Assembly (NCBI GenBank): GCA_946887045.1
Contig: CAMPKC010000044.1
Location: 1 to 38,875, forward strand
From: an uncultured Sphingobacteriaceae bacterium
Lineage (GTDB): Bacteria > Bacteroidota > Bacteroidia > Sphingobacteriales > Sphingobacteriaceae
DNA length: 38,875 nucleotides
Direction: 5' to 3'
The position numbers were made by a program, and so were the translations under genes. Shown here in pieces: positions 8,734 through 38,875 of the stretch. The number at the start of each line of letters is the position of its first letter. The stretch's first letter is position 1. Below the pieces are notes generated by a model. It was given only the letters and a program-made list of their open reading frames with translations. It did not search any database and was not told the DNA's origin.

Positions 8734-9078
8734 TTTTCTTTAAATGAAATCACAGATTCTTTGAAAGATATGCGCCTTTCTTTATAAACAATTCCCCTTT
8801 TGTTAAAGACATGGGCACTTTTCCCGAAAACAACACAACTTGTTTTCGGAACAATTGATCTTTCGTTGAAGACTATTGAGATTTCACTGAGGACAATTGG
8901 CATTGTACTGAATACAAATGAAGTTTTATTAAAAACAATTAGAATTGTGTTAACAACAATTGAATTTTCCTTGAAGATAATTGGCGTTGTATTAAACAAA
9001 GATGAGATTTCACTAAGACAATTGGCATTGTTTTAACAACAATTGAGCTTTTCATTTAAACAACTCGCGTTGCACTCC
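8734..9078. repeat. Array 1: about 16.5 degenerate 21-bp units
   Basis: Units begin at 8734, 8755, 8776, 8797, 8818, 8839, 8860, 8881, 8902, 8923, 8944, 8965, 8986, 9007, 9027, 9048 and 9069. Every step is 21 bases except one step of 20 (9007 to 9027). Units are strongly diverged but share a pattern of T-rich start, central TTRAA and ACAATTG-like end. In the right half, two unit types alternate: one starting ATTGT or GTTGT and one starting nTTTY. This gives a 42-bp higher-order period. The ATTGT units are dyad-symmetric, for example ATTGTTTTAACAACAAT at 9027-9043. Confidence 0.85.
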
Positions 9079-9192
9079 ATATTCTGACGTTTTCTGTACA
9101 TCCTTAACCTATCAATTACACGAAACGGGGAAAGGAATCAAACAAAAGTACTCTTCCTATCGCAAAATCGTCTTCGTTTACCACGAGCGAGT

Positions 9193-9224
9193 CTGTGCAA
9201 TCGTTCCCGGGCACGATTGCACAG
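9193..9224. repeat. Perfect 12-bp inverted repeat upstream of pectate lyase
   Basis: CTGTGCAATCGT pairs perfectly with ACGATTGCACAG around the 8-base loop TCCCGGGC. The hairpin lies about 110 bases before the pectate lyase start and next to a REP-like TTCGTTTACCACGAG stretch. It resembles the palindromic part of the REP elements elsewhere in the window, where GCGATTGCATCGC is found. It could be a decayed REP or a regulatory structure. Confidence 0.6.
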
Positions 9225-9336
9225 TTTCATTCAAACATCAGCAAGATTTGCATCGTTCTTGTCTATCAGGTTTCCGTTAAGCTCATTAGGAACCTGGCCT
9301 TTATAAACCATTTATATAACTAAAATTAAAACCAAA

Positions 9337-10434
9337 ATGACTAGAAATCAAATCCTGTCAGCAGCACTTGGCGTTGTCTTGTGTGCTTCATTGTCTTATT
9401 GTTCCAAATCAGAGGTGAACGAAAGCCAGACAGAAGAATTAACCACCGGATCCGGATCAAAAGCTCAAGTATCAGCTTCATTCGGTTTGGTTGGATTTGC
9501 AACTCAAAACGGCGGAACCACAGGCGGTTCTGGCGGTACTACAGTTACGGCAACTACCTATGCGCAGCTAAAATCATATCTTGAAAGCTCTACCAGGTAC
9601 GTCGTAAGGGTAGACAGACGGATTTATAATGGCACAAAGGGGGGCTCCATTAATGTAAATTCTAATAAAACTCTTTTAGGTGTCGGTTCAGCCGGATTTT
9701 TAGATGGCATCGGACTGAACATCAGCAGCAAGAGTAATATTATCATTCAAAATGTAAAGATCACCCTAACTTCTATTACAGATCGCACCGATCCTACGGT
9801 TTACGACCCTGACGGGGACGAAGGACGCCCTCAGATTATTGTTAATGGCGGTGATTGTATCGGTATCCAGGGAAGCAGTTCAAGAGTTTGGATCGACCAT
9901 TGTGAAATATACAATGAAAACCCTTCAACTCAAACAAACCAGGATCTTTACGACGGACTGATTGATATAAAACACACCAGTCAGTACATTACTATTTCAT
10001 GGAATTACTTCCACGACAATCACAAAACTCACCTGGTGGGCTCTTCTGATACCGATAACTCAGACAGAAAACTAACGTTCCACCACAACTGGTACCGGAA
10101 CATCAAATCGCGTCTTCCGTTAAACCGCTTTGGCCAGGCACACGTTTACAACAACTATTACAACGCTATTGGCTCTTCGGCTATCGACTCCAGAATGGGT
10201 GCCTGTGTTAAGATCGAGAATAATGTATTTGAAACTGTAAGAAGCCCGATCATCAGCTCTGGCACCACACCGGGAAAATACCAGATATCAGGCAACTCAT
10301 TCAGTGGAATTACAGGAACTGCTGCACCAACAAGCTCTACCTGCAGTTTCACGCCCTCATATTCTTACACGATGGATGCAACCAGCAGTGTAAAAACTGA
10401 GGTAACCACCAAGGCGGGAATAGGTAAAATTTAA
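9337..10434 (+). CDS. Pectate lyase, PL1 family, predicted lipoprotein
   Basis: A 365-residue secreted pectate lyase of polysaccharide lyase family 1, which cleaves polygalacturonate by beta-elimination. The N-terminus is a signal peptide ending in a lipobox-like LSYC, so the enzyme is probably a surface or periplasmic lipoprotein. A Ser/Thr/Gly-rich linker (to about residue 75) precedes a right-handed beta-helix. Family motifs are SSSRVWIDHCEIY (the vWiDH motif), LIDIKHTSQYITISWNYFHDHN-like strands, HHNWYRNIKSRLPLNRFGQAH with the catalytic Arg region, and VYNNYYNAIGSS. Asp clusters (DPDGDEGRP, QDLYDGLIDIK) are candidate calcium ligands. It is monocistronic. Export and family are secure; exact pectin preference is unknown. 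Confidence 0.93.
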   Translation: MTRNQILSAALGVVLCASLSYCSKSEVNESQTEELTTGSGSKAQVSASFGLVGFATQNGGTTGGSGGTTVTATTYAQLKSYLESSTRYVVRVDRRIYNGTKGGSINVNSNKTLLGVGSAGFLDGIGLNISSKSNIIIQNVKITLTSITDRTDPTVYDPDGDEGRPQIIVNGGDCIGIQGSSSRVWIDHCEIYNENPSTQTNQDLYDGLIDIKHTSQYITISWNYFHDNHKTHLVGSSDTDNSDRKLTFHHNWYRNIKSRLPLNRFGQAHVYNNYYNAIGSSAIDSRMGACVKIENNVFETVRSPIISSGTTPGKYQISGNSFSGITGTAAPTSSTCSFTPSYSYTMDATSSVKTEVTTKAGIGKI

Positions 10435-10556
10435 GGATATTAAAGGTGGCCAGAGCTTAGGCCCCTTTATTAGGAACGTCAGTAAAATACATTTACAAAT
10501 TCCCAAGAGCTGGTCACAGATTCCTAAAAGCGGAGGAAAAGTTTCGCTACGGATTA

Positions 10557-10829
10557 TTAAAAGTCGAATAAATCGTCTAAAAATGATTTCTTCTTTTTAT
10601 GATGACCATGCTGTCCTTTATGATGATCGCTATCGTGTTCGCCATATCCATATCGTTTATAGTCAGACTCATAATTTTCTCTTTTTGAATAATGATCGGC
10701 AGAACGCTCGATAATTTTCTCCAATTCACCCCGGTCTAACCATATACCTCTGCAATCTGGGCAATAGTCAATCTCTATTCCTTTTTTATCGGCCAGCAAT
10801 AAGGTGGCCTGGCAATTTGGACATTTCAT
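10557..10829 (-). CDS. zf-TFIIB-type zinc ribbon protein
   Basis: A 90-residue cytosolic protein with a single zinc ribbon formed by CPNC at residues 3-6 and CPDC at 23-26, followed by RGIWLDRGELEKII. This is the standard signature of the zf-TFIIB family of small bacterial proteins of unknown role. The second half is low-complexity, rich in Tyr, Asp, His and Lys (HHKGQHGHHKKKK), and ends in a hydrophobic FLDDLFDF motif. That tail could bind metal or a partner protein. The gene is separate from its glycan-degrading neighbours by more than 100 bases on each side. Confidence 0.88.
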   Translation of the reverse strand: MKCPNCQATLLLADKKGIEIDYCPDCRGIWLDRGELEKIIERSADHYSKRENYESDYKRYGYGEHDSDHHKGQHGHHKKKKSFLDDLFDF

Positions 10830-10954
10830 AATACGCTTGTTAGATATATATAAGAAATTAGATTATAAAAGTTTTTAAATCTCTCTCCTGAACACGATTA
10901 ACCAGATTAGAATGAGAGATCCTTAAATAGATTTTAGGAGCAATGCTACGCGAT

Positions 10955-12880
10955 CTACTTCTTCTTTATCCTGGTTTTTAAATCAGCAATTTGCATAGTG
11001 ATCATACGTCCGATTGGTTTTCCACCCCGATAGGTAATTACTTTCAATGTTGCAGCATCTTTCGGAACAATCAACGATTCGGTATACTTCGGATAAAAAT
11101 TATCCGGAAAAGAATTATCAAAGGTATAATGAATATCTAATCCTGGGATTTCTGTACTAAGTTCTACTCGTAAAGTATTGCCAGGTCCGGCGGAAGGAAG
11201 AAAAATAGGGTCGTATATACTTGGAGAGTATTTTACCTCTGCAATGTCGAACCGTTTAAAATGATCTTCCACTTTACCATAAAAATTGGTCCAGTTTTTT
11301 TTATTAACCGGCGACCATACCGATTCTGCAATAGCCAGAGCACGTGGCCACACCATATATTCTGCATGACGCATATTATAGATATTCTCTGTCCACAGAT
11401 TAGCCTGCCCGCCTTTTACATACTTTATGTCGGCAATACCCTCTCCCGGATCAAATTGATAGGCCTTGTTTAAACGTAAGGAAGCATATACTTTAGGTTC
11501 TATGGCTACATCTCCCTGCATATAATCGAGGTAAGCATAGGTGCTGGGGCTCATCACCACCTCATGACCTAACTGGGCTGCTTTTATACCGCCTTCAACA
11601 CCGCGCCAACTCATAACAGCTGTGGATTGAGATGGACCGCCTTCCAGTATCTCATCCCATCCAATAAACTTTTTCCCTTTGCCTATCACAATGGCCTCTA
11701 CCCTTCTGGTAAAATACCCCTGTACTTCTTCCATTGTTTTAAGGCCTTCTTTTAACATCAATTCTTTTATAGCAGGGTTCTTTTCCCAAAAATTGTGCGG
11801 CGCTTCATCGCCTCCCATATGTATATATTCAAACGGAAACAGGGCTGCTACTTCAGTTATAACTTTATCCAAAAACTCGTAAACCTTTTCGTTTGCAGGG
11901 CATAAAGTATTATCTACTAAAGCAATCGGAGGTGCGCCCCTCGACCAATCCATAATCTGTTCGCCCGAACGGACATTGTATTTTTCTACGCCTGGTGTAC
12001 AAGACAATTCGGGATAGGATACTACGGCAGCCAGGCTATGTCCCGGTACATCTATTTCCGGCAGAATATTTACGAAACGTTCGGACGCATATTGGATTAG
12101 TTCCTTCACATCTTCATGAGTATAAAACCCTCCGTAATCTCTCGGCTCTGTAGGTGTAGGCGGAGAAAAAGTCCCGAACTGCCCTGTTTTATTTACCCTC
12201 CAAGCCCCAACCTCAGTAAGTTTAGGTAAACTTTTTATCTGTATCCTCCAGCCTTCATCGTCGGTTAAATGAAGATGTAATAGATTATACTTGTACTTCA
12301 CCATATTATCGATGAATTTCTTTACCTCTTGTTTGGTGAAGAAATGTCTCGACACGTCGAACATTAATCCGCGCCATCCAAACCTGGGATAATCGGTGAT
12401 CGTTACACAAGGAAGCTGCCATGCTCCTCTTTTCAAAACCGTTTCGCTTTCAATTTCTTTTGGAAATAGTTGCACTAAGGATTGCACACCATAAAACAAA
12501 CCTGCCGGTTGATTAGCTTTTACTGTAACGTTTTTCGGATTTATCAGCAAACGATAGCCCTCTTTTCCTAAAGTAGTATCCGCTGTGCTATTTATTTGCA
12601 ACCTGATTGCGGCATTATCATCTTTAACAGTACTACTGGTATTTACCTTAATTCCGGTGGCTGTAGTAATTCTTTTCCTTAACAGCGCAAGGGTTGTCGC
12701 TAGCTCAGAAGAAGCAGGGGATTTTATAGTAATTTCTTCGGGAAGTGTAAAAAAGCCTTCTGTTCTTATAAGTTCAACAGGTTCGGGGATAATAGCAATT
12801 TTGCCAGTTCTGTCTTGTGCAAAGGCAGATAAACTTATCAAACAAAAAGATACAAAGGTTATAAATCGGCTCGTGTTCAT
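10955..12880 (-). CDS. Beta-N-acetylhexosaminidase, GH20 family
   Basis: A 641-residue exported glycoside hydrolase of family 20, which removes terminal N-acetylhexosamines from glycans by substrate-assisted catalysis. The ATG at 12880 is chosen because it opens a signal peptide (RFITFVSFCLISLSAFAQ); an in-frame ATG 96 bases upstream would bury it. Residues about 30-160 form the GH20b domain (IPEPVELIRTEG, GYRLLI). The catalytic barrel follows with YPRFGWRGLMFDVSRHF, HLHLTDDEGWRIQI and LPEIDVPGHSLA. The catalytic Asp-Glu pair is D358-E359 in HMGGDEAP. An AYLDYMQGD segment and LWTENIYN close the site. The C-terminus holds a beta-sandwich (about 565-635) like those in other bacterial hexosaminidases. 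The stop is about 125 bases from the zinc-ribbon gene. Confidence 0.95.
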   Translation of the reverse strand: MNTSRFITFVSFCLISLSAFAQDRTGKIAIIPEPVELIRTEGFFTLPEEITIKSPASSELATTLALLRKRITTATGIKVNTSSTVKDDNAAIRLQINSTADTTLGKEGYRLLINPKNVTVKANQPAGLFYGVQSLVQLFPKEIESETVLKRGAWQLPCVTITDYPRFGWRGLMFDVSRHFFTKQEVKKFIDNMVKYKYNLLHLHLTDDEGWRIQIKSLPKLTEVGAWRVNKTGQFGTFSPPTPTEPRDYGGFYTHEDVKELIQYASERFVNILPEIDVPGHSLAAVVSYPELSCTPGVEKYNVRSGEQIMDWSRGAPPIALVDNTLCPANEKVYEFLDKVITEVAALFPFEYIHMGGDEAPHNFWEKNPAIKELMLKEGLKTMEEVQGYFTRRVEAIVIGKGKKFIGWDEILEGGPSQSTAVMSWRGVEGGIKAAQLGHEVVMSPSTYAYLDYMQGDVAIEPKVYASLRLNKAYQFDPGEGIADIKYVKGGQANLWTENIYNMRHAEYMVWPRALAIAESVWSPVNKKNWTNFYGKVEDHFKRFDIAEVKYSPSIYDPIFLPSAGPGNTLRVELSTEIPGLDIHYTFDNSFPDNFYPKYTESLIVPKDAATLKVITYRGGKPIGRMITMQIADLKTRIKKK

Positions 12881-13047
12881 TAACTTGCTTAAAGTGCGAA
12901 AATAGGCATTATGATAATTTGATAAACTCTGGATGTGATTTTTTATTGCTTTTATGTCTGCATCAAGGCCTATCACATTCCGATTTACCCCACCCCATCC
13001 AGCGCAGGCATCTCCCCTTGCGCTGATCTATCTTGGATTATACGGAT

Positions 13048-13078
13048 AAAACCGAATCTCTTTTTGAGACCCGGTTTA
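13048..13078 (-). terminator. Putative terminator after PL1 gene
   Basis: AAAACCG and CGGTTT flank an inner CTC/GAG pairing with a T/A loop, forming an imperfect stem. It lies about 65 bases past the stop of the pectate lyase on the minus strand, and the minus strand then reads a short T run. Its position between two minus-strand genes fits a terminator. Confidence 0.45.
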
Positions 13079-13142
13079 AAGGTCATATAGTTAAAACTGA
13101 TAAAGAGTTGATTCTTATTATTTAATGAACTTTTTAACTGGA

Positions 13143-14672
13143 TTAACTAATCGTATCGATATTGTTGCCAAGATTGCGGTAATTGATTTTTTCGTGAGGG
13201 TTAGTACCATTAAGGTATTCTTCAACATTTGTATATACATCGCCGTCCGAATCCATAGCGCCATCTTTGGAATTTTTCGGATCAAACTTGTGTTTGATTT
13301 CCCACGTGTCAGGCATACCATCTCCGTCGCTGTCAACAGGTACCTGGGCTGGATTGAATGTCAGGTTAGGATAACCCCCAACTTCCGCAACATCTTTAAT
13401 GATACCGGTTGCAGTCATCGGTTTTCCAGTACGTACCATCTCGGTTACACGTGTATCAACAGCATCACGTTTTGGTAGAGTAGCGCCTGCCTTCGCCAGT
13501 ACCGACTCGTAAGCGGCACCAGCTGTGTGGTGTGGTGCTACCGGCCAGCCTACAAACGGGGTATTCACGCGGGCAAGCGTCTCTGGTCCGCGCATACCGG
13601 CCCAGTTGCTTTTGTTTAGCTCTTCATTACCGTGCATGATGTTACCGGCAACATACCATTTGCCCGGACGGTTAGTTTCCTTTTTGTACCAGTCGCCTTC
13701 CTTCCATGCACTGCCGGGAGAATACATGCTGCGTTGTTCGATACGGGCAAACACTGCGCGCATGTTTTCATTAGTAGCCGGACCCGGTTTGAAATAGTTA
13801 TTGATAAGATTGATCATTGAAGTTTCATCGCCACCATCTACCGAACGGTGCTGCCAATTGAAAACCACATTGTTCCGGAAATCAAAAGGACCTGACATCC
13901 CTATGGAAGGATTCCGGGCCGTGTTGCTGGCAAACAGGTTATGATGGAAGGTAGATGGGTTTCCTCCCCAGGTTCCGCCAAAAGCATGCCCTCTGGCATT
14001 TAACGCTTCGCTGGAAATAGTCCATTGAACGGTTATATGTTCTGCAGCATCTTTTATTTGTGTGCTTCCGTCTAACGATGGTCGCATGTGGCGGTAGAGC
14101 GAAATATTTTCGTCCATACCCCAGCTTGTAGAACAATGGTCGATAATAATGTGATGGTCCGGATTTCCACCTATATTATCATCACCCTGTCCGCCTGTAG
14201 GAACGCCTCGGCGTACACGCAGGTGGCGGATAATCACATTGTGTGTGTTGATATTAAGCGTTCCGGCAATACAAATACCATCGCCCGGCGCGGATTGGCC
14301 GGCAATTGTGATGTCGGGATGATTGATATTGAGATCTCCGTTAACTTTGAGCGTACCTGCAACACGAAAGACAACAGTACGTGGCCCCTGAGTCTCTAAA
14401 GCAGCACGAAAACTTCCCGGACCATTATCGTTAAGATTTGTGACAGCAATAACTTTGCCTCCACGTCCTCCGGTGGTAAACATACCACCTCCCCATGCTC
14501 CTGGAAATGCAGGGATAGCACCCTCGGGTAATCGGGTAGGATGTGGAGGTATTTGTCCTGATTCAGGCTGCCCGACAGCATTGTTAATATTTTGTGCATT
14601 CGCGCCCTCACCCAGACATAAAAAAGCAAACAAAAGCAAACTCGATGCGAAAACTTGATAGGATCTTTTCAT
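13143..14672 (-). CDS. Pectate lyase-like PL1 protein with calcium-loop tail
   Basis: A 509-residue exported polysaccharide lyase. The signal peptide (VFASSLLLFAFLCLGEGANAQ) follows the ATG at 14672. A second ATG at 14702 is in frame and preceded by a near duplicate of the same start sequence (ATGAAAAGATTCTAT against ATGAAAAGATCCTAT), so the exact start is uncertain. The beta-helix shows AFPGAWGGGMFTTGGRGG, GSFRAALETQGPRTVVF, HVIIRHLRVR-like strands and HHIIIDHCSTSWGMDENIS, all typical of PL1 lyases that act on pectin. The last 70 residues contain DSDGDGMPDTWE and DSDGDVYTNVEEY, thrombospondin-type-3-like calcium loops common at the end of such Bacteroidota enzymes. It is divergent from the GH2 gene. 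Confidence 0.92.
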   Translation of the reverse strand: MKRSYQVFASSLLLFAFLCLGEGANAQNINNAVGQPESGQIPPHPTRLPEGAIPAFPGAWGGGMFTTGGRGGKVIAVTNLNDNGPGSFRAALETQGPRTVVFRVAGTLKVNGDLNINHPDITIAGQSAPGDGICIAGTLNINTHNVIIRHLRVRRGVPTGGQGDDNIGGNPDHHIIIDHCSTSWGMDENISLYRHMRPSLDGSTQIKDAAEHITVQWTISSEALNARGHAFGGTWGGNPSTFHHNLFASNTARNPSIGMSGPFDFRNNVVFNWQHRSVDGGDETSMINLINNYFKPGPATNENMRAVFARIEQRSMYSPGSAWKEGDWYKKETNRPGKWYVAGNIMHGNEELNKSNWAGMRGPETLARVNTPFVGWPVAPHHTAGAAYESVLAKAGATLPKRDAVDTRVTEMVRTGKPMTATGIIKDVAEVGGYPNLTFNPAQVPVDSDGDGMPDTWEIKHKFDPKNSKDGAMDSDGDVYTNVEEYLNGTNPHEKINYRNLGNNIDTIS

Positions 14673-15014
14673 TTTTTTTAAATTCTTATAGAATCTTTTC
14701 ATTGATTTATAAATTCTACCTGAATATATACGAAAGCCATCTGAATAAGTGTAACATTTACGTTCAACGGGGGATTATGGGGAATCGGTTTGACAGTCTA
14801 AAGGCAAGCAGAATTATAAATCTCGTCTGATTTTCTACTTTGTAATGATGAGGCTAAACTCACATTCAGATTGTACAGCTCAAGCGGGACTATCTAAAGA
14901 ACGCAACTAAAAAACTATGCAGTTAAAAAAAAAGAATGCATAGATATAATGTCAAACAATATTTAAAAGGTTTATGCCTTACTTTGTTGATATTTTCTTT
15001 GGATAATTAAAACC
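14673..15014. promoter_or_regulatory. 342-bp divergent upstream region, PL1 and GH2
   Basis: This gap must hold the promoters of two divergently transcribed glycan-degrading genes. TTACTTTG at 14979-14986, 28 bases before the GH2 start, differs from the TAnnTTTG -7 consensus by one base. No clear -33 element, operator dyad or coding region was found, so shared regulation is possible but not shown. Confidence 0.35.
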
Positions 15015-30262: not shown

Positions 30263-30395
30263 AATCGTCCTCGTTTGCAACGAGGACGAAGCGAATACGC
30301 GATTGTACGCTCTTTAAACAATCTCAATTGTTAAAAGCCCGACTCTCCGGAATAGTTTTTTGCGCTGATCATCAGGCATTTTCGGCTCTTTCCAC
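30263..30395 (-). pseudogene. REP plus 3' relic of a RAYT transposase
   Basis: The plus strand starts with a REP hairpin whose stem is 11 bp in this copy (TCGTCCTCGTT-TGC-AACGAGGACGA). On the minus strand the adjoining sequence reads AGIVERAENA, two stops, then SAKNYSGESGLLTIEI. It matches AGIVERAEDYLMSSAKDYSGEP in the RAYT remnant at 36836-37345. Everything upstream in the transposase is gone. It fills the 303-bp gap between the cold-shock gene and the SDR gene. Confidence 0.78.
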
Positions 30396-30525
30396 AATGC
30401 CTGCACAACAGGGGTGCTACAAATGTGACGACTCGATTCAAAGATTCTTGTATAATCCAGCATTTCAACGCAATTCCTTTTCATCCCCTAGCCTTTTAAA
30501 TCCCTACATTAAATCAACATAGGTT

Positions 30526-31950
30526 ATGAAGATTCTTTTAACAGGCACAACCGGTTACATCGCCCAGCGACTTTTACCACTATTACTGGAAGGAGGGCAT
30601 GAACTGTTCTGCTGTCTCAGAGATAAAAGCCGGTTTGACCTGGAAAAATATAAAGATTTCAAAATCACTTTACTGGAGGTTGATTTTTTAAATACTGATT
30701 CTCTGAACATTATCCCGAATGATATTGATGCCGCCTATTACCTCATGCATTCCATGTCGTCGGCTTCCGGCGACTTCTCAGAAATGGAAGGACAAACGGC
30801 CATCAACTTTAAGCACCGGCTTGAGCAAACTAATGCCCGGCAAGTGATCTTTCTCAGCGGAATTATAAACGATACACAACTTTCCAAACACCTCAATTCA
30901 AGAAAAAACGTAGAAGAAATTCTTTCCTCCGGCAGCTATAGCCTCACCACGCTAAGAGCCGGAATAATAGTGGGTTCGGGCAGCGCAAGCTTTGAAATTA
31001 TGCGCGACCTGGTTGAAAAGCTGCCGGTGATGGTTGCTCCGAAATGGCTCGAAACAAAGTGCCAGCCCATCGCTATCAGAAATGTGCTGGAATACCTATA
31101 CGGTGTTTTACTGTCTGAACCTGACTTTAACCAAACGTATGATATTGCCGGTCCAGAAATAATCTCTTATAAAGACATGCTGTTACGATTTGCCGAAGTG
31201 AGGAAATTAAAACGCCGCATCCTGGTGGTGCCTGTCATGACTCCGCGTCTGTCTTCCTACTGGTTATATTTTGTAACCTCGGTATCTTATAGTCTTGCAA
31301 AGAATCTGGTAGAAAGCATGAAAGTAGAGATCATTGGGCAACCCAACACGCTCGGGCAACGACTTAACATTCAACTTATTCCGTATAATGATGCTATTGA
31401 ACTCGCTTTTGATAAGATTGAACAGAACCAGGTAATTTCCAGCTGGCGCGATGCCATGAACAGCAGGGCCTACCAGTCGGGATTTGCCAGCCTGGTAGAA
31501 GTTCCGGTTGATGGTTGTTTTACTGATAAACGCCGGATGAATGTCAGCAATCCTGAAAAAGTGATGACTAATATCTGGTCTATAGGTGGACAGACCGGCT
31601 GGTACTATGCAGATTTCTTATGGTCGCTTCGGGGCATTCTGGATAAAATGGTGGGTGGCGTTGGTCTGAAAAGGGGGCGAACAAATCTGAATGAAATACT
31701 CCCGGGACATGTTATCGACTTCTGGAGAGTTATTCTGGCAGATAAAAAAGACCGGAGGCTGCTATTGTATGCCGAAATGAAGCTCCCGGGCGAAGCCTGG
31801 CTTGAATTTCGATTGGACAAGGATAATGTCCTCCATCAAACGGCTACTTTCCGGCCCCTGGGCCTACTTGGGCGACTTTACTGGTATTCGGTTCTACCTT
31901 TCCATTCCTTTATTTTTAAAGGGATGTTGAGGAAGATAGTTGCGGAATAG
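30526..31950 (+). CDS. NAD(P)-binding SDR-type protein with DUF2867 domain
   Basis: A 474-residue protein in two parts. Residues 1-about 300 form an atypical short-chain dehydrogenase/NmrA-like Rossmann fold: MKILLTGTTGYIAQRLLPLL carries the TGxxGYI nucleotide-binding motif, and AAYYLMHSMS, VIFLSGII and TTLRAGIIVGSGSASFE follow. Residues about 320-474 form a DUF2867 domain (SLVEVPVDGCF, WSIGGQTGWYYADFLWSLRG, GDVVDFWRV-like GHVIDFWRVILADK, MKLPGEAWLEF). This fusion is widespread in bacteria and uncharacterised; a redox role on a lipid or small molecule is plausible. The start is the first ATG and the length agrees with the family. It is monocistronic. Confidence 0.9.
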   Translation: MKILLTGTTGYIAQRLLPLLLEGGHELFCCLRDKSRFDLEKYKDFKITLLEVDFLNTDSLNIIPNDIDAAYYLMHSMSSASGDFSEMEGQTAINFKHRLEQTNARQVIFLSGIINDTQLSKHLNSRKNVEEILSSGSYSLTTLRAGIIVGSGSASFEIMRDLVEKLPVMVAPKWLETKCQPIAIRNVLEYLYGVLLSEPDFNQTYDIAGPEIISYKDMLLRFAEVRKLKRRILVVPVMTPRLSSYWLYFVTSVSYSLAKNLVESMKVEIIGQPNTLGQRLNIQLIPYNDAIELAFDKIEQNQVISSWRDAMNSRAYQSGFASLVEVPVDGCFTDKRRMNVSNPEKVMTNIWSIGGQTGWYYADFLWSLRGILDKMVGGVGLKRGRTNLNEILPGHVIDFWRVILADKKDRRLLLYAEMKLPGEAWLEFRLDKDNVLHQTATFRPLGLLGRLYWYSVLPFHSFIFKGMLRKIVAE

Positions 31951-32299
31951 ATTTAAGGCGAAGGCTTCGTTGGATTTGTGCGTTGAAACCGTGGCAATCT
32001 GTTTGCTACGAAGTTGGGATCTAAAACATACTGCAAACATTTCTATCAACAGAATTCCTTTAATAGCATAACTTGCTATTGCTCTGGCATGAGCTCAGTG
32101 CCATGACTGTAAAGTGGGTCTAGCTTAATGCCGATTGCAGAAAGAAGGCTGTACGTCCAGAGTAGACGGATTTACAAACCTCCTTTCATAGCAACCCTTA
32201 TTTATCCGGGCTCAGGCAGCGCCTTAAACTCAAACCAAAACTCCATCTACTTAGGCATCCATATAATAGTCATATCTTCGAGTAGCCCGAAAATGTCGC
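31951..32299. other. 349-bp gap with no recognisable feature
   Basis: The two genes on either side converge here. I see no gene, REP hairpin, array or clear terminator; only a short dyad TGGCA..TGCCA near 32077-32095. It may hold weak terminators that cannot be recognised by eye. Confidence 0.4.
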
Positions 32300-33256
32300 C
32301 TACCGATTAATTGCAGATTTGGCCGTTAAGAAGCGATTAACCTCAAGCCAATGCATAAAGGCATCAAACCAACGATTACTTGTTCTGTCCGGATTGCCTA
32401 GTCCAAAGCCGTGACCGCCGTTTTGGTAAAGATGAAACTCTACTGGGATACCGGCTTTATACCAGGAATCAACCACGCCAAACTGTCCGCGGAAAAGGAA
32501 ATCATCCGTAGCAATTACGTTGAACATAGGCGGAGCATTCTTTGGCACCTGCACCGGACCCATACCTCCGTAGATTGGACCGATGAAAGCGAGTTTCATA
32601 GTTTTAGAATTAAGTGTTGAGTGCATGGTTAGGCCTGCCCCGGCCGAGAACCCAATCATCCCTATTCTTGCAGTGTCAACACCCCACTCTTTGGCACGCT
32701 TAATAATCATGGCGTATGCGGCCTCTGCGTCGGCGAGTTGGTTAGACAGATCAGGTTGTGCGGGTCTGGCTGGTGCCGTACCCGGTGTATTATTAGCAGA
32801 GGCGGCAGCTGCAGGGCGCGGAGCATTCATCGATTGCTTAAAATCTTCAAGCGATACGGGAGTAGGTTGCAGCCTGTATTTAAGCACAAAAGCGGCGATT
32901 CCTTTGTCCGCAAGTGCCTTTGCAACTTCCCAGCCCTCGTTGTCTAACGATAGCCACCTGTAACCTCCGCCGGGCGCTACAATCACCGCGGTGCCATTTG
33001 CTTTGCCGGCCTTAGGCAGAAAAGGGGTTAAAGTCGCTTTGGTGATATTCCTTGCCATTGGATCACCCCATTGGCGGAACCAGGTTTCTTGTGCCGGCTG
33101 ATTATTGACACCGCCGGTGCCGAGTGGAATTGCATTCGGCTCTGCAGGCGCATTTAGTGGATAGATAGTGCCGTCCTGTGCCATGGCAGACGCTGAAATT
33201 GTCATTAAGATCGCTAAGGCGGACCTTTTAGCAAGATTTATTGGCTTTTGAATCAT
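32300..33256 (-). CDS. Exported alpha/beta-hydrolase, esterase-like (BD-FAE/acetylesterase type)
   Basis: A 318-residue secreted alpha/beta-hydrolase. The signal peptide (residues about 1-26) ends at SASAMAQ. The fold shows VIVAPGGGYRWLS (oxyanion-hole HGGG-like motif), GWEVAKALADKGIAAFVLKYRL, the nucleophile elbow GFSAGAG with catalytic Ser in IGMIGFSAG, PPMFNVIATDDFL with the presumed acid Asp, and the catalytic His in LYQNGGHGFG. This pattern is typical of acetyl-xylan or carbohydrate esterases in Bacteroidota, fitting the nearby pectinolytic genes, though it lies 15 kb away. A Pro/Ala-rich insert (about 140-165, AAAASANNTPGTAPARPAQ) is unusual. It is monocistronic. Confidence 0.9.
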   Translation of the reverse strand: MIQKPINLAKRSALAILMTISASAMAQDGTIYPLNAPAEPNAIPLGTGGVNNQPAQETWFRQWGDPMARNITKATLTPFLPKAGKANGTAVIVAPGGGYRWLSLDNEGWEVAKALADKGIAAFVLKYRLQPTPVSLEDFKQSMNAPRPAAAASANNTPGTAPARPAQPDLSNQLADAEAAYAMIIKRAKEWGVDTARIGMIGFSAGAGLTMHSTLNSKTMKLAFIGPIYGGMGPVQVPKNAPPMFNVIATDDFLFRGQFGVVDSWYKAGIPVEFHLYQNGGHGFGLGNPDRTSNRWFDAFMHWLEVNRFLTAKSAINR

Positions 33257-33533
33257 GGTGGTTGATATGTGTTAGTTATTTAATTTTTTTTACGCAAATC
33301 CTCTGCCTTGGTGAATTCTCAGGAATTAATTAAACCCTTGTCTGCGTGAGCGCATGAACCAGGCAGAAAGGAATTCAGTTTTTTTCATGTTTTATTAAAG
33401 ATAAAGCACAGTCTAATCCAGCCGATAGTTCGAGGTTTATAGAGAATCCGGTATTCAAAAGTAGAGCAGCACACTTAGAACGACTGTTACATTTGATCAA
33501 GGTGATAGCAAAAATGTGTAAACTTAAATCATT

Positions 33534-33742
33534 GTGATGCCCAATTACAAAACGGTAATGCTTAGTTACAAGGCTGTAATGCCTGGTTACAAAGCCGTAA
33601 TACCGGATTACAGGGCTGTAATGCATGATTACAATGCCGTAATGCGTGGTTATAATGCCGTAATGTTCGATTACACTGCCGTAGTGGCCGATTACACGAG
33701 CTAATACTCATTTACAGTGCATGGATATCCATTTACCTGCCT
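33534..33742. repeat. Array 2: ten 21-bp units with GTAAT..ATTAC dyads
   Basis: Units start at 33534, 33555, 33576, 33597, 33618, 33639, 33660, 33681, 33702 and 33722; all steps are 21 bases except one of 20. Six consecutive units begin GTAAT and each carries a downstream TTAC or TTAT, so the core is a 15-bp dyad GTAAT-n5-ATTAC. The spacer ends in GCC or GCT. Units differ in the five central bases, while the arms are conserved, which points to constraint on the palindrome rather than simple duplication. Confidence 0.88.
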
Positions 33743-33895
33743 GTTAAGTGGCCTTGGATTCGTCGGACTTTTGGCTTTTTGGTGGGAGGCTTGGGCGGAA
33801 TAACGGATTGAAAAACGGGCGAAAAATTCGGAGATTTAGCTGCATTCTTGCGCCAAAAACCAGCATCCGATTATCTAAAACATTCAATAGAATCA

Positions 33896-33950
33896 GGCAC
33901 AAGTACCCAGCCCGCAGTCAGCGTTGCATACTTGCGCCAAACCAGGGCGA
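33896..33950 (+). repeat. Interspersed ~50-bp repeat, copy C
   Basis: Best-preserved copy: AGGCACAAGTACCCAGCCCG, then CAGTCAGCGTTGCATACTTG, then CGCCAAACCAGGG. It lies about 150 bases beyond the end of array 2 and just before the GPxYKN gene's 3' end. A partial copy (GCATTCTTGCGCCAAAAACC) lies 50 bases to its left. Confidence 0.78.
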
Positions 33951-33983
33951 ACACTAAAAAATAGTGGCCCGAACCAACGATCC

Positions 33984-34307
33984 TTAATTTGGTCTTCTGA
34001 AATGATGATTGTAGTTTTTGTATGCAGGACCTTTTAATTTCTGCTGCTCATTGCCACCAGTGGTCACTATGGTCTGTTCTACATTTGACGTAACTCTCCC
34101 CGGCTGACGGTTCTTATATGCTGGCCCTTGGACTGTTTCTACAGAGGTGGCCGACTGTAATTTTGTTGGCACCGCTTTGTGCATCCAATGTTTAAAATTT
34201 TTATATTCCGGACCTTTCAGATCACTTTGTTTTACTTCGCTTTTGTCTTGTGCCAACGCACCAAATGAAATGACAAACAATCCTAAAATTAATGTTGCCT
34301 TTTTCAT
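33984..34307 (-). CDS. Small exported protein with GPxYKN repeats
   Basis: A 107-residue exported protein. The ATG at 34307 opens a signal peptide (ATLILGLFVISFGALAQ); an in-frame ATG seven codons upstream is less likely. The mature part holds three copies of a short motif: LKGPEYKNFKHW, VQGPAYKNRQPG and LKGPAYKNYNHH. They are separated by Thr/Val/Gln-rich spacers. No domain is recognised. Regular GPxYKN motifs with basic and aromatic residues suggest binding of a polymer, metal or partner. It lies directly downstream of a kinase-regulator pair on the same strand, with a dyad between. Confidence 0.78.
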   Translation of the reverse strand: MKKATLILGLFVISFGALAQDKSEVKQSDLKGPEYKNFKHWMHKAVPTKLQSATSVETVQGPAYKNRQPGRVTSNVEQTIVTTGGNEQQKLKGPAYKNYNHHFRRPN

Positions 34308-34386
34308 GACTGTTTTTTTATTGTTCATAAATCAAATCTACAGTCGATGACAGGGCTTTGGTAATATGTGAATTTACTCTATTTGT

Positions 34387-34404
34387 ATCCGTATTTATAC
34401 GGAT
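34387..34404. promoter_or_regulatory. Dyad ATCCGTA..TACGGAT between regulator and GPxYKN genes
   Basis: ATCCGTA-TTTA-TACGGAT is a perfect 7-bp stem with a 4-base loop, 18 bases past the regulator stop and 80 bases before the GPxYKN start. It may be a terminator for the two-component operon or an operator for the downstream gene. Confidence 0.5.
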
Positions 34405-34421
34405 GGTGTTGAATTAGTGAG

Positions 34422-35054
34422 TTAGATTAAGTTTATTTCAGTGGCTTTTTTAATGAGCTCGGCAGTGTTTTTCACTTCAAGCTTTTTAAGAATATTAGTG
34501 CGATGGGTTTCTATTGTGCGTGAACTCACAAACAACTTGGCAGCGATCTCTTTTGTGGTCAAGCCCTTAGAAATCAGTCCCAAAACCTCGGTCTCTTTCT
34601 TTGATAAAACATTTTCGCTGACGCTTTGGGCAGACATAAAGTTTATCATTTTTTCAGAAATTTCAGCGCTAAAATATTTCTTTCCTTTGTATACAGTTCT
34701 AATTGCAAAGATCAGTTCAGATTCATCGGTATTCTTTAACAGGTAACCGTAAGCGCCCATCCTGGCACATTTTGCTATATAGTTACCGGCACTGTGCATG
34801 GAAATCACAATAGGTCTTATTTTAGCGTTTAAGTTTTTTAATTCTTTTAAAACCTGAAAACCGTCCATTTCTGGCATAGTAAGATCGAGCAAAACAATAT
34901 CCGCATCAAACTCCTCTTTTATTACGTTCATAAACTCAAAGCCATCAGCAACACTTTTAACAATCTTAATGTCGTCATGCTTTTTAAGTAACTCCACAAG
35001 CCCATTTCTAAAAAGCTCATGGTCATCAGCAATTATTAACTTGATCTCATTCAT
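34422..35054 (-). CDS. NarL/FixJ-type response regulator
   Basis: A 210-residue response regulator. The receiver carries the acidic pair in LIIADDHELF, phosphoacceptor Asp57 in DIVLLDLTMPEMDG, the switch Ser in VISMHS and Lys in YGYLLKNTDES. The LuxR-type helix-turn-helix reads LSKKETEVLGLISKGLTTKE then IAAKLFVSSRTIETHRTNIL. Its ATG overlaps the kinase stop as ATGA, showing translational coupling and a cognate pair. It differs from the two regulators near 18-19.5 kb. The nearest candidate target is the GPxYKN gene downstream. Confidence 0.94.
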   Translation of the reverse strand: MNEIKLIIADDHELFRNGLVELLKKHDDIKIVKSVADGFEFMNVIKEEFDADIVLLDLTMPEMDGFQVLKELKNLNAKIRPIVISMHSAGNYIAKCARMGAYGYLLKNTDESELIFAIRTVYKGKKYFSAEISEKMINFMSAQSVSENVLSKKETEVLGLISKGLTTKEIAAKLFVSSRTIETHRTNILKKLEVKNTAELIKKATEINLI

Positions 35055-36706
35055 AGTTCAACGGGTAGTTCAATTTCGAAAGTTGTATTTCCGGGTAAAG
35101 CATTGATCGTAATTTTACCATTGCAAATGTCTACCCGCTCTTTAATGTTTGTGATTCCAGATCCCAGTTTAACAGTGTTAATATCAAAACCAGAACCATC
35201 ATCAAAATAGAAAAGTGAAATAAACTCATCAAATTCTGAAAGTGTAATTCGGATATTTTTCGCTTTAGAGTGTTTTAATGAGTTATTTATTAGCTCCTGG
35301 CTTATTCTAAAAAGGTTGATCGCTTGATGATCAGTTATTTTAGAGTTCTCTTGCTTAGTCAGATCTTCATATTCAATGTTTATACTGGTTGATTTATTTA
35401 AGTTTTCGATGTAGTTTGTTAGTGTTACGCCAATTCCAAAATCGTCTATTGATGCAGGCATTAATGCGTTCGACATTGACCTGATCTCGGAAATGGTCTC
35501 ATCCACTATTTTTTTCATTTCAGTTTTCTTCAACTCATTTTCGACGTTATTTTCGATATAATACTTCAAAGAAGTTAAATAAGGGCCCAAACCATCATGA
35601 AGCTCTCTCGAAAGTCGACGCCTTTCGTTTTCCAAACCACTCACCAACAGCCGCTTTGCCATTATTCTAGTATTATCTTCTTTGTTTTTAAAATCGATGA
35701 GCTTATTTCTCATCGTTAGAAGACTTTTTCCAAGGACGTCATTGGCACTGCTAGGTTCATAATTTGTTTTTAGATCCATATTGCCGATTGCCTCAGAAAA
35801 TTTTACAGCACCTTGTAAAGAAGCTTTCAGGTTCGATAGCGCATCGAACATTTCTTTTATTTCACTTGAACTTCTTTTGTATTCGATGCTTTGATTGTAG
35901 TCGCCTTTAGCCATAACTCTCAGGCTATTTCGCATATTCTTTATCGGATCAATAATAATTCGTGTTAGGAAAAGTGACAGAGTAACAGCAACTAAAAAAA
36001 TGATAAGAGTTAAGGTCATAAGCCTTAACTTCAATTTTTCTAAGGGCTTCGTAACCTCACTTACATCAATTTCAGAGAGAATGACCAACTTTAGATTTGA
36101 AATTTGAATAAGACTGTAGACACTATAAACCGGAACACCTCTGTAATCCTTAAAAATATCTCTTCCATTGATCCCTTTTAACGCACTGATTACCCCCTGC
36201 GTTTTTACAATAATATCATAAGGTTTTTTATTCGAAAAAAAACGAGATTCAGAACGCATTCGAAAATCTTCGCCAACAAGATAGGTCTCTCCACTCTCGC
36301 CCATACCGGTTCGTTCCAAAAGAATGTTTTGAATATTGCTGTAATCTATTACTTTGATCTTTCTGCCTTTTTTGGTATTTAAAATAAAACCTATTGTTGG
36401 TTTTTTATCCTTATGATAAGGAGTGAAATCATGGATGCCACTGATCATTTTTATACTGTCCGGAAGCGCGAAAGTAGTACTATCAATATTTTCGCTATAC
36501 CCGTCAGATGATTCAAGACTTTCCCATTCTGCCTTTATAAGATTTTCTATCTGAATACTTTCAAGGGTTTCGATTGAATTTAACTGCATTAAAATACGAT
36601 CGTTCAAAACACTTGAAAACTGTTCATAAAACGAAAAAGACAACAAAGCGATCACCAATACGATCAAACTATTGATCATAATTAGTATTAGTGTTTTTAT
36701 GTTCAT
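35051..36706 (-). CDS. Sensor histidine kinase with dCache-like sensor, HAMP and HisKA_3
   Basis: A 551-residue membrane kinase. A first transmembrane helix (residues about 5-27) and a second (about 230-250) enclose an extracellular sensor of roughly 200 residues that has the dCache/PAS-like signature GMGESGETYLVGEDFRMRSE. A HAMP linker follows (IIDPIKNMRNSLRVMAKGDY), then a second helical HAMP-like stretch, and the dimerisation/phosphoacceptor region with RRRLSRELHDGLGPYLTSL, His370. The ATPase domain shows RISQELINNSLKHSKA (N box), FDDGSGFD (G1) and GSGITNIKERV. It is coupled to the regulator by a 4-base overlap. The ligand is unknown. Confidence 0.94.
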   Translation of the reverse strand: MNIKTLILIMINSLIVLVIALLSFSFYEQFSSVLNDRILMQLNSIETLESIQIENLIKAEWESLESSDGYSENIDSTTFALPDSIKMISGIHDFTPYHKDKKPTIGFILNTKKGRKIKVIDYSNIQNILLERTGMGESGETYLVGEDFRMRSESRFFSNKKPYDIIVKTQGVISALKGINGRDIFKDYRGVPVYSVYSLIQISNLKLVILSEIDVSEVTKPLEKLKLRLMTLTLIIFLVAVTLSLFLTRIIIDPIKNMRNSLRVMAKGDYNQSIEYKRSSSEIKEMFDALSNLKASLQGAVKFSEAIGNMDLKTNYEPSSANDVLGKSLLTMRNKLIDFKNKEDNTRIMAKRLLVSGLENERRRLSRELHDGLGPYLTSLKYYIENNVENELKKTEMKKIVDETISEIRSMSNALMPASIDDFGIGVTLTNYIENLNKSTSINIEYEDLTKQENSKITDHQAINLFRISQELINNSLKHSKAKNIRITLSEFDEFISLFYFDDGSGFDINTVKLGSGITNIKERVDICNGKITINALPGNTTFEIELPVEL

Positions 36707-36835
36707 TAAAATCTTATTAAAAACAGGTGGTCTAATAAACCTATTACTGATCGAGCTACTATAATGAGCTTTTCGAACGCGTAATTATACGGATTTGCAA
36801 TGTGTAAAACGACATCGTTAACTGGATATTCCGGA

Positions 36836-37345
36836 CTAAGCTGACCCTTTGATCGTCCTCGTTTGCAACGAGGATGAAGCGAGAACAGCGATTGCATCGC
36901 TCTTTAATACAATCTCAATAGGCACCAAGCCGGGCTCTCCTGAATAATCTTTCGCGCTGCTCATCAGATAATCTTCGGCTCTTTCCACAATACCTGCCCG
37001 AACCGGATTGTCGTGCATATACGAAAGCTTTTTTCTTATGTCCAAACCAGATAGATCAATTGCATGATTATCATCCCGCCAGATTTTGTATCGGTCTGCC
37101 CGACTGCTCCTTCTTGCTCCAAAAACAAACTTATCCATAAGCCACTCCCTCCTGCTTTCTGGTATCCTGAGCACAGCGTTCGCTAAAGTTTTTGATGTAT
37201 GCTTTTTAAAATCCCACAGGAAATCTGACATTCGATGCGGTTCTTCGCATCTTCCAGCGAAATGAAGATGCTGACGGTCTCCAAATTTAGAAATTCGTTT
37301 TAGATGAGAATAAAACGGGCGAAAAATTCGCAGACTTCGTTGCAT
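36836..37345 (-). pseudogene. RAYT (REP-associated tyrosine transposase), N-terminally truncated
   Basis: A RAYT/Y1 transposase frame that lacks its normal start region. It keeps the HUH-type motif in HLHFAGR and the family blocks MSDFLWDFKKHTSK, ESRREWLMDKF, YKIWRDDNHAIDL, KLSYMHDNPVRAGIVERAED and LMSSAKDYSGEPGL. The usual first 60-70 residues, which begin GIYFVTF-like, are replaced by sequence unrelated to the family. The last 22 codons read through a REP (ASSSLQTRTIKG). It is bounded by a REP at 36851 and a second hairpin CCTCGTTACAAACGAGG at 37363. A non-functional relic is the best reading; the catalytic tyrosine could not be identified. Confidence 0.82.
36851..36920 (+). repeat. REP element copy at RAYT 3' end
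   Basis: GATCGTCCTCGTTTGCAACG opens the element, and GATGAAGCGAGAACAGCGAT then TGCATCGCTCTTTAATACAA follow. The hairpin CCTCGTT-TGC-AACGAGG is intact, with a second dyad GCGATTGCATCGC. It overlaps the end of the RAYT frame, the arrangement expected for a REP recognised by its own transposase. Confidence 0.85.
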
Positions 37346-37447
37346 CCTCCTTGCATCCTCGTTACAAACGAGGAAGATATTTCTGTTATTCTTTTTATGG
37401 CTAATAGCAGATATGGTTTATATTAGCAGTACTTAAACTTAAATCCT

Positions 37448-37669
37448 ATGATTTTTGCATTCTTAAACATCGGTACACCAGAATTAATTATTCTATTTAT
37501 TGCTTTGGTGCTTGTGACGGCTATCACAGCGATAGTGTTTCGTTTTATCCTTTCTATTTCACAAAGAAACAAACTGATGAAGCAGCAAGTGCAGCTATTA
37601 GAAGAGATAGCGAAAGCTAATAATGTACCCGCAGACAGAATATCTGGTATTCAGAATGAAAACAGGTAA
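37448..37669 (+). CDS. Small single-pass membrane protein
   Basis: A 73-residue protein: one hydrophobic helix (residues about 10-36, LIILFIALVLVTAITAIVFRF) followed by a charged coiled-coil-like helix (KLMKQQVQLLEEIAKA) and a short tail. No family is recognised beyond the general class of small Bacteroidota membrane proteins with this layout. It stands alone between the RAYT remnant and a REP, in its own transcription unit. The start is the first ATG. Confidence 0.7.
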   Translation: MIFAFLNIGTPELIILFIALVLVTAITAIVFRFILSISQRNKLMKQQVQLLEEIAKANNVPADRISGIQNENR

Positions 37670-37718
37670 GATGAATCTTTCAAGTCAAAAAAAGCCAACT
37701 TACATACCCCATCCTTAA

Positions 37719-37788
37719 ATCGTCCTCGTTTGCAACGAGGATGAAGCGAGAACAGCGATTGCATCGCTCTTTAAACAATTTCAATAAG
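37719..37788 (+). repeat. REP element copy
   Basis: Starts ATCGTCCTCGTTTGCAACGA and continues GGATGAAGCGAGAACAGCGA, TTGCATCGCTCTTTAAACAA. It matches the copy at 36851 almost base for base over 60 bases. It lies between the small membrane protein and the BLUF gene, which converge on it. Confidence 0.87.
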
Positions 37789-37812
37789 TATACTGGACGG
37801 GGTAAACTTTAT

Positions 37813-38223
37813 CTAAGATTTCACAGTGCTTTTACCACGTAATAAATTAAAAAGGGAAACCAAATCAAGTGCACCACTACTACCGGGGGTATAAATGTCC
37901 TTGTAGCCAGGTTCGTTAGCTAATTCTGCTTCAGAAACAATTCTGAAGCTCATTGACCAGCCCGGAAATAATCGTTTATCCGCCGGTCCATCTTTCAACA
38001 TAGTCACATGCCTGTGTCTGTCGTCGGCACAAATTGCTTTATAAAGCAATTTTACCTGCTCTTCGTCTCCCTCGAGCAATTGCAGGAATTTATTGTCGAA
38101 ATACAGGAGCATGCCTGTAATATCCAGGCTGTTGTTTCGATGACGCGATTGAGTCAAAAGAGACTTCAGGTCTGATTCGCTCATTGGATTTATTGCTTCA
38201 CTGCGGTATATAAGAAAATACAT
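37813..38223 (-). CDS. BLUF-domain blue-light photoreceptor
   Basis: A 136-residue single-domain BLUF protein, which binds FAD and senses blue light. All key residues fall where they do in Slr1694 (offset by two): Tyr6 in LIYRSEA, Asn30 in RHRNNSLDITGMLL, Gln48 in FLQLLEG, Trp89 and Met91 in WSMSF. ADDRHRHV and LFPGWSMSF are standard. The C-terminal 40 residues form a short helical cap with no output domain, so it must signal by interacting with another protein or a neighbouring gene product. No obvious partner is adjacent; the kinase pairs are several kb away. It is monocistronic. Confidence 0.95.
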   Translation of the reverse strand: MYFLIYRSEAINPMSESDLKSLLTQSRHRNNSLDITGMLLYFDNKFLQLLEGDEEQVKLLYKAICADDRHRHVTMLKDGPADKRLFPGWSMSFRIVSEAELANEPGYKDIYTPGSSGALDLVSLFNLLRGKSTVKS

Positions 38224-38402
38224 AAAACAAAGAATGATACCTCTATGGATAAACCCTTTAGCTATATTAAAGACATTAGATCCGCTAATTGAATATAAAT
38301 TTTCGTCAAAATGTTTTGGCCAGGTCTATTTGTTTAAATCTGAATAGAAAAGAGCCTGGAGTATCTGTTAAAATCTGGGCAAATAAACGACCAAACCCCT
38401 TG

Positions 38403-38452
38403 GGTCGTCCTCGTTTGCAACGAGGATGATGCGAGAATAGCAATTGCCAACG
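38403..38452 (+). repeat. REP element copy fused to RAYT 5' relic
   Basis: GGTCGTCCTCGTTTGCAACG then AGGATGATGCGAGAATAGCA, an intact hairpin with a changed tail. The tail runs straight into the start region of a RAYT gene in reverse orientation (next entry), so the middle of the element has been lost. Confidence 0.8.
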
Positions 38453-38459
38453 TGTACAG

Positions 38460-38581
38460 GTGAATTGTGATAAAATAGATTCCCTGAGATTCGTAGATTG
38501 TTCTTCTAACAGGCATAGTGGTTTAAAGGTACAAGAAAGTTTTTTCTACCGCGGAGTGCCTGAAAGTAGGAGACTCTGCGG
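38460..38581 (-). pseudogene. RAYT 5' relic with upstream hairpin
   Basis: On the minus strand, from the ATG at 38516, the sequence reads MPVRRTIYESQGIYFIT, the usual beginning of Bacteroidota RAYT proteins, and then ends within about 20 codons in the REP. Upstream of the ATG, CCGCGGAGT (38549-38557) and ACTCTGCGG (38573-38581) form a stem with one mismatch. The piece is a start-plus-hairpin remnant joined to a 3' REP, an internal deletion derivative of a full element. Confidence 0.7.
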
Positions 38582-38628
38582 GGAAGGAAAAAAATCACTT
38601 AAGATATCCGCACGTCTTGTTAATATGA

Positions 38629-38681
38629 GGCACAGGTACTCAGTCCACAATTGGCAATGCATACTTGCGCTAAATAGAAGG
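38629..38681 (+). repeat. Interspersed ~50-bp repeat, copy D
   Basis: GGCACAGGTACTCAGTCCAC, AATTGGCAATGCATACTTGC, then GCTAAATAGAAGG. It sits about 20 bases before array 3 starts. It shares the GCATACTTGCGC core with copy C. Confidence 0.72.
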
Positions 38682-38702
38682 TTTAATACATAACTTACCT
38701 AT

Positions 38703-38875
38703 ACGATTGTATTTTACACATAGACTATTGTATTTAATACAAGAGCCTTTGTATTAAATACATTGACCGTTGTATTTAATACAAGAGCCTTTGTAGTCAT
38801 TACATTAACCATTGTATTTCATACAAGAGCCTTTGTATTCTTTACATTGACCATTGTATTTAATACAAGAGCCTT
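38703..38875. repeat. Array 3: at least eight 21-bp units, runs off window
   Basis: Units start at 38703, 38724, 38745, 38766, 38787, 38808, 38829, 38850 and 38871; every step is exactly 21. Two unit types alternate: ACC or ACT then nTTGTATTTAATACAAGA, and GCCTTTGTA..TTACATT. The first type holds the perfect 15-bp dyad TTGTATTTAATACAA. The 42-bp alternation matches the pattern in array 1. The array continues past the window end. Confidence 0.9.

Follow-up and report, generated by a model that had tools for sequence, protein, structure and literature searches.

Direct repeats in phase with the DNA helix are familiar from plasmid iterons and centromere-like arrays, in which repeats of about 19–22 bp are linked to the gene of the protein that binds them, while the REP (repetitive extragenic palindromic) and BIME (bacterial interspersed mosaic element) sequences that accompany REP-associated tyrosine transposases (RAYTs) are dispersed, intergenic, often located at the 3′ ends of genes, and contain dyads in some cases. 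Here we describe tandem non-coding arrays with a step of 21 bp, three of which (W1, W2 and W3) lie in a 38,875-nucleotide stretch of DNA from an uncultured Sphingobacteriaceae bacterium (contig CAMPKC010000044.1; the whole stretch is called the window). In related genomes such arrays are often found directly 3′ of genes that encode a protein family not studied so far, for which we use the label GHA, and this suggests an undescribed protein-and-array system.

The arrays resemble iterons and centromere-like arrays in being helix-phased direct repeats near 21 bp with a linked protein gene, but they are dispersed and their units differ; no initiator or partition protein family was matched among the neighbours of W1–W3 or the neighbours tested in relatives, and neither W2 nor GHA gave a plasmid match. 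They share with REP and BIME sequences a dispersed, intergenic location, often at gene 3′ ends, and dyads in some, but have a fixed tandem step and no general hairpin, dyads and folding being no stronger than in permuted controls outside some families. Unlike a CRISPR (clustered regularly interspaced short palindromic repeats) array, they repeat the whole unit and have no spacers.

Within the Bacteroidota, the BrickBuilt element of Porphyromonas gingivalis is described as a 23-nt minisatellite inside a miniature inverted-repeat transposable element, with a leader, a tail and terminal inverted repeats (PMC4596501). The likeness lies in the phylum, the short tandem unit, the always intergenic position and the many sites per genome; however, the arrays described here have units of 21, 42 or 63 bp rather than one 23-nt unit, comprise several unit families, are linked to a protein family, and show no shared ends of the BrickBuilt kind among 16 arrays tested (32 flanks, four unit families). 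Heptamer repeats are reported to be the most abundant intergenic tandem repeats of many prokaryotes and to be unexplained (PMC6344855); they too have a fixed unit length, but their unit is 7 bp, and among 19 of our arrays tested lag-7 identity is raised in only two (L146, 0.41; L225b, 0.39). A further survey treats repeats and curvature (PMC4060949). No description of such 21 bp arrays was found in the open-licence papers searched, in agreement with an earlier inspection of the letters of this DNA (the sequence-only reading), which could name no element of this form.

Arrays with a 21 bp step in the window and in relatives

In a lag-identity scan of the window (126-base windows, periods 5 to 63), lag-21 identity exceeds 0.5 over 126 bp at exactly three places, W1, W2 and W3 (hulls 8685–9077, 33458–33774 and 38637 to the end; peaks 0.63, 0.75 and 0.68), the window as a whole averaging 0.276 with a standard deviation of 0.058; the three arrays singled out by the sequence-only reading are thus real. 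Tandem Repeats Finder assigns period 21 to W1, periods 21, 42 and 63 to W2, and periods 21 and 42 to W3, which has a lag-42 identity of 0.87 and is better described as a 42 bp unit of two alternating 21-mers. The step stays constant while the units diverge by 45% in W1, 30% in W2 and 34% in W3; near 9014–9035 in W1 there is, by eye, a one-base slip that the gap-penalised script did not count. The architecture that the three share is this 21 bp step, and it recurs in relatives with other sequences. They had also been called unrelated in sequence, which is not fully confirmed: W1 and W3 prove related when one of them is inverted (profile z 4.7), so that the window arrays are not wholly unrelated, and the W2 unit family is common to two arrays of Paradesertivirga mongoliensis. 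Among 151 genomes of the bacterial family, the W2 query matched P. mongoliensis alone (at most five candidates scored per genome) and the W3 query gave four weak matches, none within a 21 bp array. W1–W3 are members of the class described below, to judge from their period, non-coding character and intergenic position and from the W2 family in P. mongoliensis.

The RecQ protein of the window is 90% identical to that of a Sphingobacteriaceae metagenome-assembled genome (MAG; G001), 89% to that of P. mongoliensis (G002) and 76–79% to those of Desertivirga. Relatives were sampled for arrays. In Sphingobacteriales MAG 341R (G018), 792 kb contain 29 tandem-repeat regions, whose periods range between 8 and 109; ten have period 21 and six period 42 (two of these 16 look coding), and every other period occurs at most once. 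Among 61 loci from more distant Bacteroidota and other bacteria, which together span 1.09 Mb and whose RecQ is at most 57% identical, no region has a fundamental period of 20–22 or 41–43, at a score threshold slightly higher than in G018. This control omits L048, on account of its title, and keeps three loci titled Sphingobacteriales (L061, L071 and L072; RecQ 55% or less); one of its loci, L020, also scores at lag 21 (27) and by eye is an array of the 7 bp type.

In P. mongoliensis the first sample (426 kb) held one array, and in six further 20 kb stretches period 21 did not occur, while two arrays of period 42 lay inside open reading frames (ORFs); BLAST located arrays of two unit families at six places, and a seventh array adjoins the second GHA gene of this genome, giving a total of at least seven. 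In G001, whose RecQ is the closest, 367 kb yielded a single period-21 array, which is weak and has three units. G002 and G018 both contain non-coding arrays of period 21 or 42 that exceed three units, and none was present in the sampled parts of G001, G006, G011 and G017, which have no GHA, or of G003 and G004, which both have it. Arrays in G007, which has no GHA, look 7 bp-based by eye. We note that arrays of 7 or 14 bp (L205 17749–17896, L146 5610–5675, L246 1452–1590 and L171 205–287) apparently form a separate class, with a fixed unit length and varied sequence.

The properties of the 21 bp arrays were examined in a catalogue of 28 (three from the window, six from G002 and 19 from G018), which excludes the G018 regions L146 19647 and L228 14861 as coding or probably coding. 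None is spanned by an ORF of 100 aa or more, once ORFs composed mostly of array are set aside, and the arrays are thus intergenic: 12 lie between co-directional, ten between convergent and five between divergent genes, with one (W3) undecided, and some arrays (L146, L171, L230, L232 and L261) start no more than 5 bases from a stop codon. The 5,892 positions compared include 1,555 mismatches and only five lag switches, corresponding to about three insertions or deletions (indels). Because indels amount to about one tenth of point mutations in bacterial mutation experiments, about 150 would be expected in arrays without constraint. The arrays found by BLAST (L230–L237 and L259–L262) contain one indel.

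A class of tandem non-coding arrays exists in several Sphingobacteriaceae, intergenic and kept in step. Its units are held at a length of 21 bp (or 42 or 63) even as their sequence drifts and spreads among the loci of one genome, and other 21 bp arrays, on whose existence the sequence-only reading had made its case depend, are present in G018 and G002. With a step of 21 or 42 bp, all units look towards one side of the helix. Since the letters change and the step does not, it is probable that something reads the geometry.

Arrays often lie 3′ of GHA genes

The unnamed GHA family, of about 240 residues, was first met at three places in the DNA then examined, each beside an array (65, 173 and 503 bp away). 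Homologues are present in 23 of 201 genomes of the bacterial family, and among 12 relatives only in G002, G003, G004 and G018. Arrays occur in the 3′ flanks (the only side read for most GHA genes) of the second G002 and third G018 GHA genes (2/2), of GHA relatives in metagenomic viral contigs (L265, L266 and L267; 3/3), in nine of 13 further 600 bp flanks, and in seven of ten flanks of a last batch, where L284 is marginal (score 22). In total an array lies 3′ of 24 of 31 GHA genes, or 21 of 28 if the three discovery cases are removed, and by genome the linkage holds in 15 of 19; the flanks are of unequal length, 800 bp having been used for L080 and 280 for L267, and L273 (35 bases, at a contig end) was dropped. 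In the control, only five of 1,892 pieces of 600 bp contain an array with a score of at least 20 (P 5e-39 against 21/28). The class is strongly linked to the 3′ side of GHA genes.

Comparison of 22 GHA-linked arrays, omitting L289 and L276 (a relative of L290), gave a profile z above 3 in 14 of 231 pairs, so some of them are related to one another. Between GHA-linked and window arrays five of 66 pairs exceed a z of 2, the best being the pairs that W1 forms with L284 (z 4.5; A-rich unit) and with L002 (z 3.2). One array behind a GHA gene, at L275 38–557 (reverse complement), has about 25 units arranged as a 63 bp higher-order repeat of three 21 bp units.

GHA has no convincing relative in Pfam, NCBIfam, PHROG, PADLOC or PDB. 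Of 7,997 candidates scored in a profile search, 4,190 were accepted at an E of 1e-3 or better; most of the accepted relatives among those listed are unnamed, and most of the names given are 'hypothetical protein'. The AlphaFold2 model is confident and all-helical (predicted local distance difference test score 90.2, predicted template modelling score 0.80), the two halves of the protein are homologous (hhalign probability 93.7%), and net charge is positive in all 42 members considered, with ten columns basic in at least 90%, compared with four acidic ones.

A second unnamed family, of about 229 aa, is found in G018 alone among the 201 genomes (L233 1874–2563 and L235 1811–2485), both genes being about 95 bp from a 42 bp array located on the 5′ side. 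It has no relative in the viral contigs searched, and homology between it and GHA is unsupported (hhalign 2.8%). Two genes of the endonuclease-like DUF559 family (L080 3902–4285 and L233 2896–3267), 90% identical to each other, lie 35 bp and 1.1 kb from arrays.

Window arrays and their neighbours

Table 1. Arrays of the window and the genes adjoining them.
Feature	Position	Strand	Details
Array W1	8734..9078	.	~16 units of 21 bp, consensus TGAAAACAATTGAACTTTTAT; gap between divergent genes
Array W2	33534..33742	.	~9 units of 21 bp, consensus GTAATGCCTGATTACAAGGCC
Array W3	38703..38875	.	8 units of 21 bp, alternating 42-bp pattern; 15-bp perfect dyad TTGTATTTAATACAA
DUF808 protein gene, adjoins W1	7654..8541	-	PF05661, E 4.7e-92
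Pectate lyase gene, adjoins W1	9337..10434	+	PF00544, E 8.5e-41
Alpha/beta hydrolase gene, adjoins W2 (W2 upstream of gene)	32300..33256	-	PF07859, E 1.5e-10
Small 114-aa protein gene, adjoins W2	33984..34328	-	ORF; no Pfam or NCBIfam match
BLUF photosensor gene, adjoins W3	37813..38223	-	PF04940, E 9.6e-31

The window ends inside W3, perhaps owing to a break in the assembly at that point. An ORF resembling a RAYT lies on the minus strand at 36836–37345, at a distance of 1.4 kb from W3; its match (E 2.4e-8) reaches 34 bits, below the family cut-off of 80, and covers only the later part of the model. Inverted ends around W1 (ACAGAAAAC / GTTTTCTGT) were considered and rejected: the same word beside L171 is a gene end, and near-matches to it in the window are at chance level. 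Conservation of array position, a check proposed earlier, found no support, as blastn of the window against the RecQ loci matched recQ alone and the DUF808 loci of relatives that were scanned (L089–L092, L094, L096 and L098) contained no period-21 array.

Dyads and dispersal of units

The sequence-only reading had also given the three arrays palindromic cores. The dyad stands out clearly in W3 (P 0.0005 by column permutation, with 0.017 and 0.06 from two other versions of the test), is confined to the outer arms in W2 (P 0.002; whole core 0.08 and 0.10), and is weak in W1 (P 0.013 and 0.027; 0.06 for a narrower stretch and 0.39 for the arms). Pooled over 19 arrays the test gives P 0.009 and 0.015, and without the window's three (16 arrays) 0.11 and 0.16, while the 22 gene-linked arrays have no dyads as a group (P 0.63). 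Palindromic cores are therefore a property of some families only, and it is the 21 bp step that is constant across the class.

In the 42 bp family of the L216 unit in G018, 47 units were reduced by four poor or shifted matches and then two identical units, leaving 41 from eight arrays, in which 73.3% of the dyad cells are paired (57.7% in shuffles), 38 cells have both sides changed (11.6 in shuffles) and covariation is 0.425 (0.174 in shuffles, and at most 0.200 in slid versions); none of 500 shuffles reaches any of these three values, although kinship among units can lift values above shuffles without structure. The dyad axis has the highest pairing of 84 axes (0.70; mean 0.27, standard deviation 0.10), and four other axes equal it in the number of two-sided columns. 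In this family a dyad thus appears, from the aligned units, to stay paired through changes on both sides; many other arrays have no dyad.

Units are also dispersed within genomes, as had been suspected. The 42 bp unit of L216 has 12 matches at nine G018 loci, one copy holding a single unit and one holding two, and has no match in 19 other genomes of the same genus. At L233 and L235 the flanks are 79% identical over 394 bp, beside duplicated genes, and the units are different, which indicates that arrays turn over while step and dyad persist. This is the only long match between array loci, the other flank matches being of 15–27 bp (E 0.014–0.049). The L237 array (1500–1685) has a 56 bp direct repeat, 80% identical, between its own left and right flanks, which could be a trace of insertion or recombination. 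The L214a query gave one match, in G022, with no array there, and matches like L146 in G088 are 7/14 bp arrays. Because these unit searches scored few candidates per genome (five or six, and two in the search that gave the G088 matches), absence in them is weak evidence.

Explanations for the fixed step

We favor the explanation, tentatively and with a little more doubt than confidence, that it is a protein assembling on one side of the double helix that keeps these non-coding arrays at their 21 bp step, with GHA the leading candidate. With two helical turns per unit, phase would outweigh letters. From the observed linkage we infer that GHA or a partner may bind the arrays as cognate factor; a basic protein with two homologous halves could place one half on each turn and one molecule on each unit. 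The other arrays of a genome would serve as additional platforms, perhaps for folding or insulating DNA at gene ends, and units would multiply and homogenise through slippage or unequal exchange, with pieces of one or two units seeding new loci. A more ambitious form of this proposal, which we think unlikely, is a two-part chromosomal system of the Bacteroidota in which a helical protein of two domains, with one half on each helical turn, polymerises along 21 bp arrays and reads phase rather than letters, protein and arrays drifting while the geometry stays fixed and remote arrays acting as stations.

A number of observations weigh against assembly of GHA along the arrays. For seven of the 31 GHA genes the flank that was read lacks an array, including those of G003, G004 and G117 and all three that were read in G188, and many arrays, the window's three among them, have no adjoining GHA gene. 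The window itself contains no GHA gene (tblastn with two GHA proteins, E 1e-4), and its connection to GHA is by class only. No 5-mer is common to the 22 GHA-linked arrays beyond chance. The linkage statistics are also subject to several limits: the control pieces consist largely of coding DNA, come for the most part from genomes that lack GHA, and were scored only at lags 21 and 42, whereas the flanks were also allowed 63 but had to beat every other period; G173, G151, G197 and G066 each contributed more than one flank, and G188 its three array-less ones; L276, L289 and L290 carry mutually related arrays; and the array-dense G018 has a higher background, estimated at a few per cent of genes. 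As to the step, most arrays were found by an ungapped scan, which is biased to indel-free arrays, and neutral homogenisation could also purge indels. Within the 42 bp family, pairs changed on both sides (5, with 4.4 in shuffles) and further pair types (11, with 10.2) are not above shuffles.

The strongest alternative is that the arrays are selfish minisatellites without function, which a mechanistic two-turn step of copying or exchange multiplies at tolerant intergenic sites, GHA being a mere neighbour or part of the same mobile element. We regard this as a serious proposal but on balance rather unlikely: the variety of units, the rapid turnover at L233 and L235, the higher-order 42 and 63 bp patterns and the enrichment of G018 arrays between convergent genes, where little gets disturbed (9/19, against 32 of 194 gaps of at least 150 bp; P 0.003), all agree with it, but alone it leaves unexplained both the GHA linkage across genomes and in three metagenomic contigs and the changes on both sides of the dyad in the 42 bp family. 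It is improbable, in our estimation, that the arrays are transcribed and that GHA binds the repeat RNA, 21 nt being an RNA or processing unit. A basic helical protein without known sequence relatives, with the linked arrays 3′ of its gene, would suit such a pair; however, the arrays mostly fold no better than column-permuted versions on either strand (mean z -0.42 and -0.37 over 24 arrays), the exceptions being W3 on both strands and L230 on one, the window has no Rfam match, and by eye terminator-like stems seem to separate gene from array in L264 and L265. Hairpin arrays in RNA, as entertained in the sequence-only reading, are thus not the rule.

That the arrays serve a general nucleoid protein or intrinsic curvature, independently of GHA, with the two-turn step summing the bend of each unit, has still less to recommend it: respacing the units to 20 or 22 bp does reduce predicted curvature, but the arrays are no more curved than column-permuted ones, lying above the permuted mean in nine and 12 of 28 cases under two wedge models. 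Least probable by far is that the arrays are coding heptad repeats, seven codons long, of small or decayed proteins. Genuine coding 21 bp periodicity does exist in these genomes, in a 737-aa protein with an RDT-type heptad repeat (L127 3969–6182, minus strand) and within a 435-aa ORF (L146 19647–19729), but this explanation is already contradicted by stops in all six frames in nine of 28 arrays, by the absence, in the 19 arrays tested, of any signal at codon positions (combined P 0.47; L002 alone 0.027 and L218 alone 0.022), and by 324 synonymous changes of 1,356 in stop-free frames where 357 are expected; the arrays are not pieces of repeat proteins, a possibility that the sequence-only reading had itself raised. 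A common dyad, RNA hairpins, curvature and coding are each rejected as general features of the arrays.

Bacterial repeat elements are normally defined by their sequence, while here it is geometry rather than sequence that is conserved, and the arrays are tied to a large protein family that has no name. If it is true that a protein reads helical phase, this would be an unusual mode of DNA recognition; and even if the arrays are selfish, their sharp preference for 21 bp would indicate a specific copying mechanism. Either way, the linkage to GHA provides a direct experimental handle.

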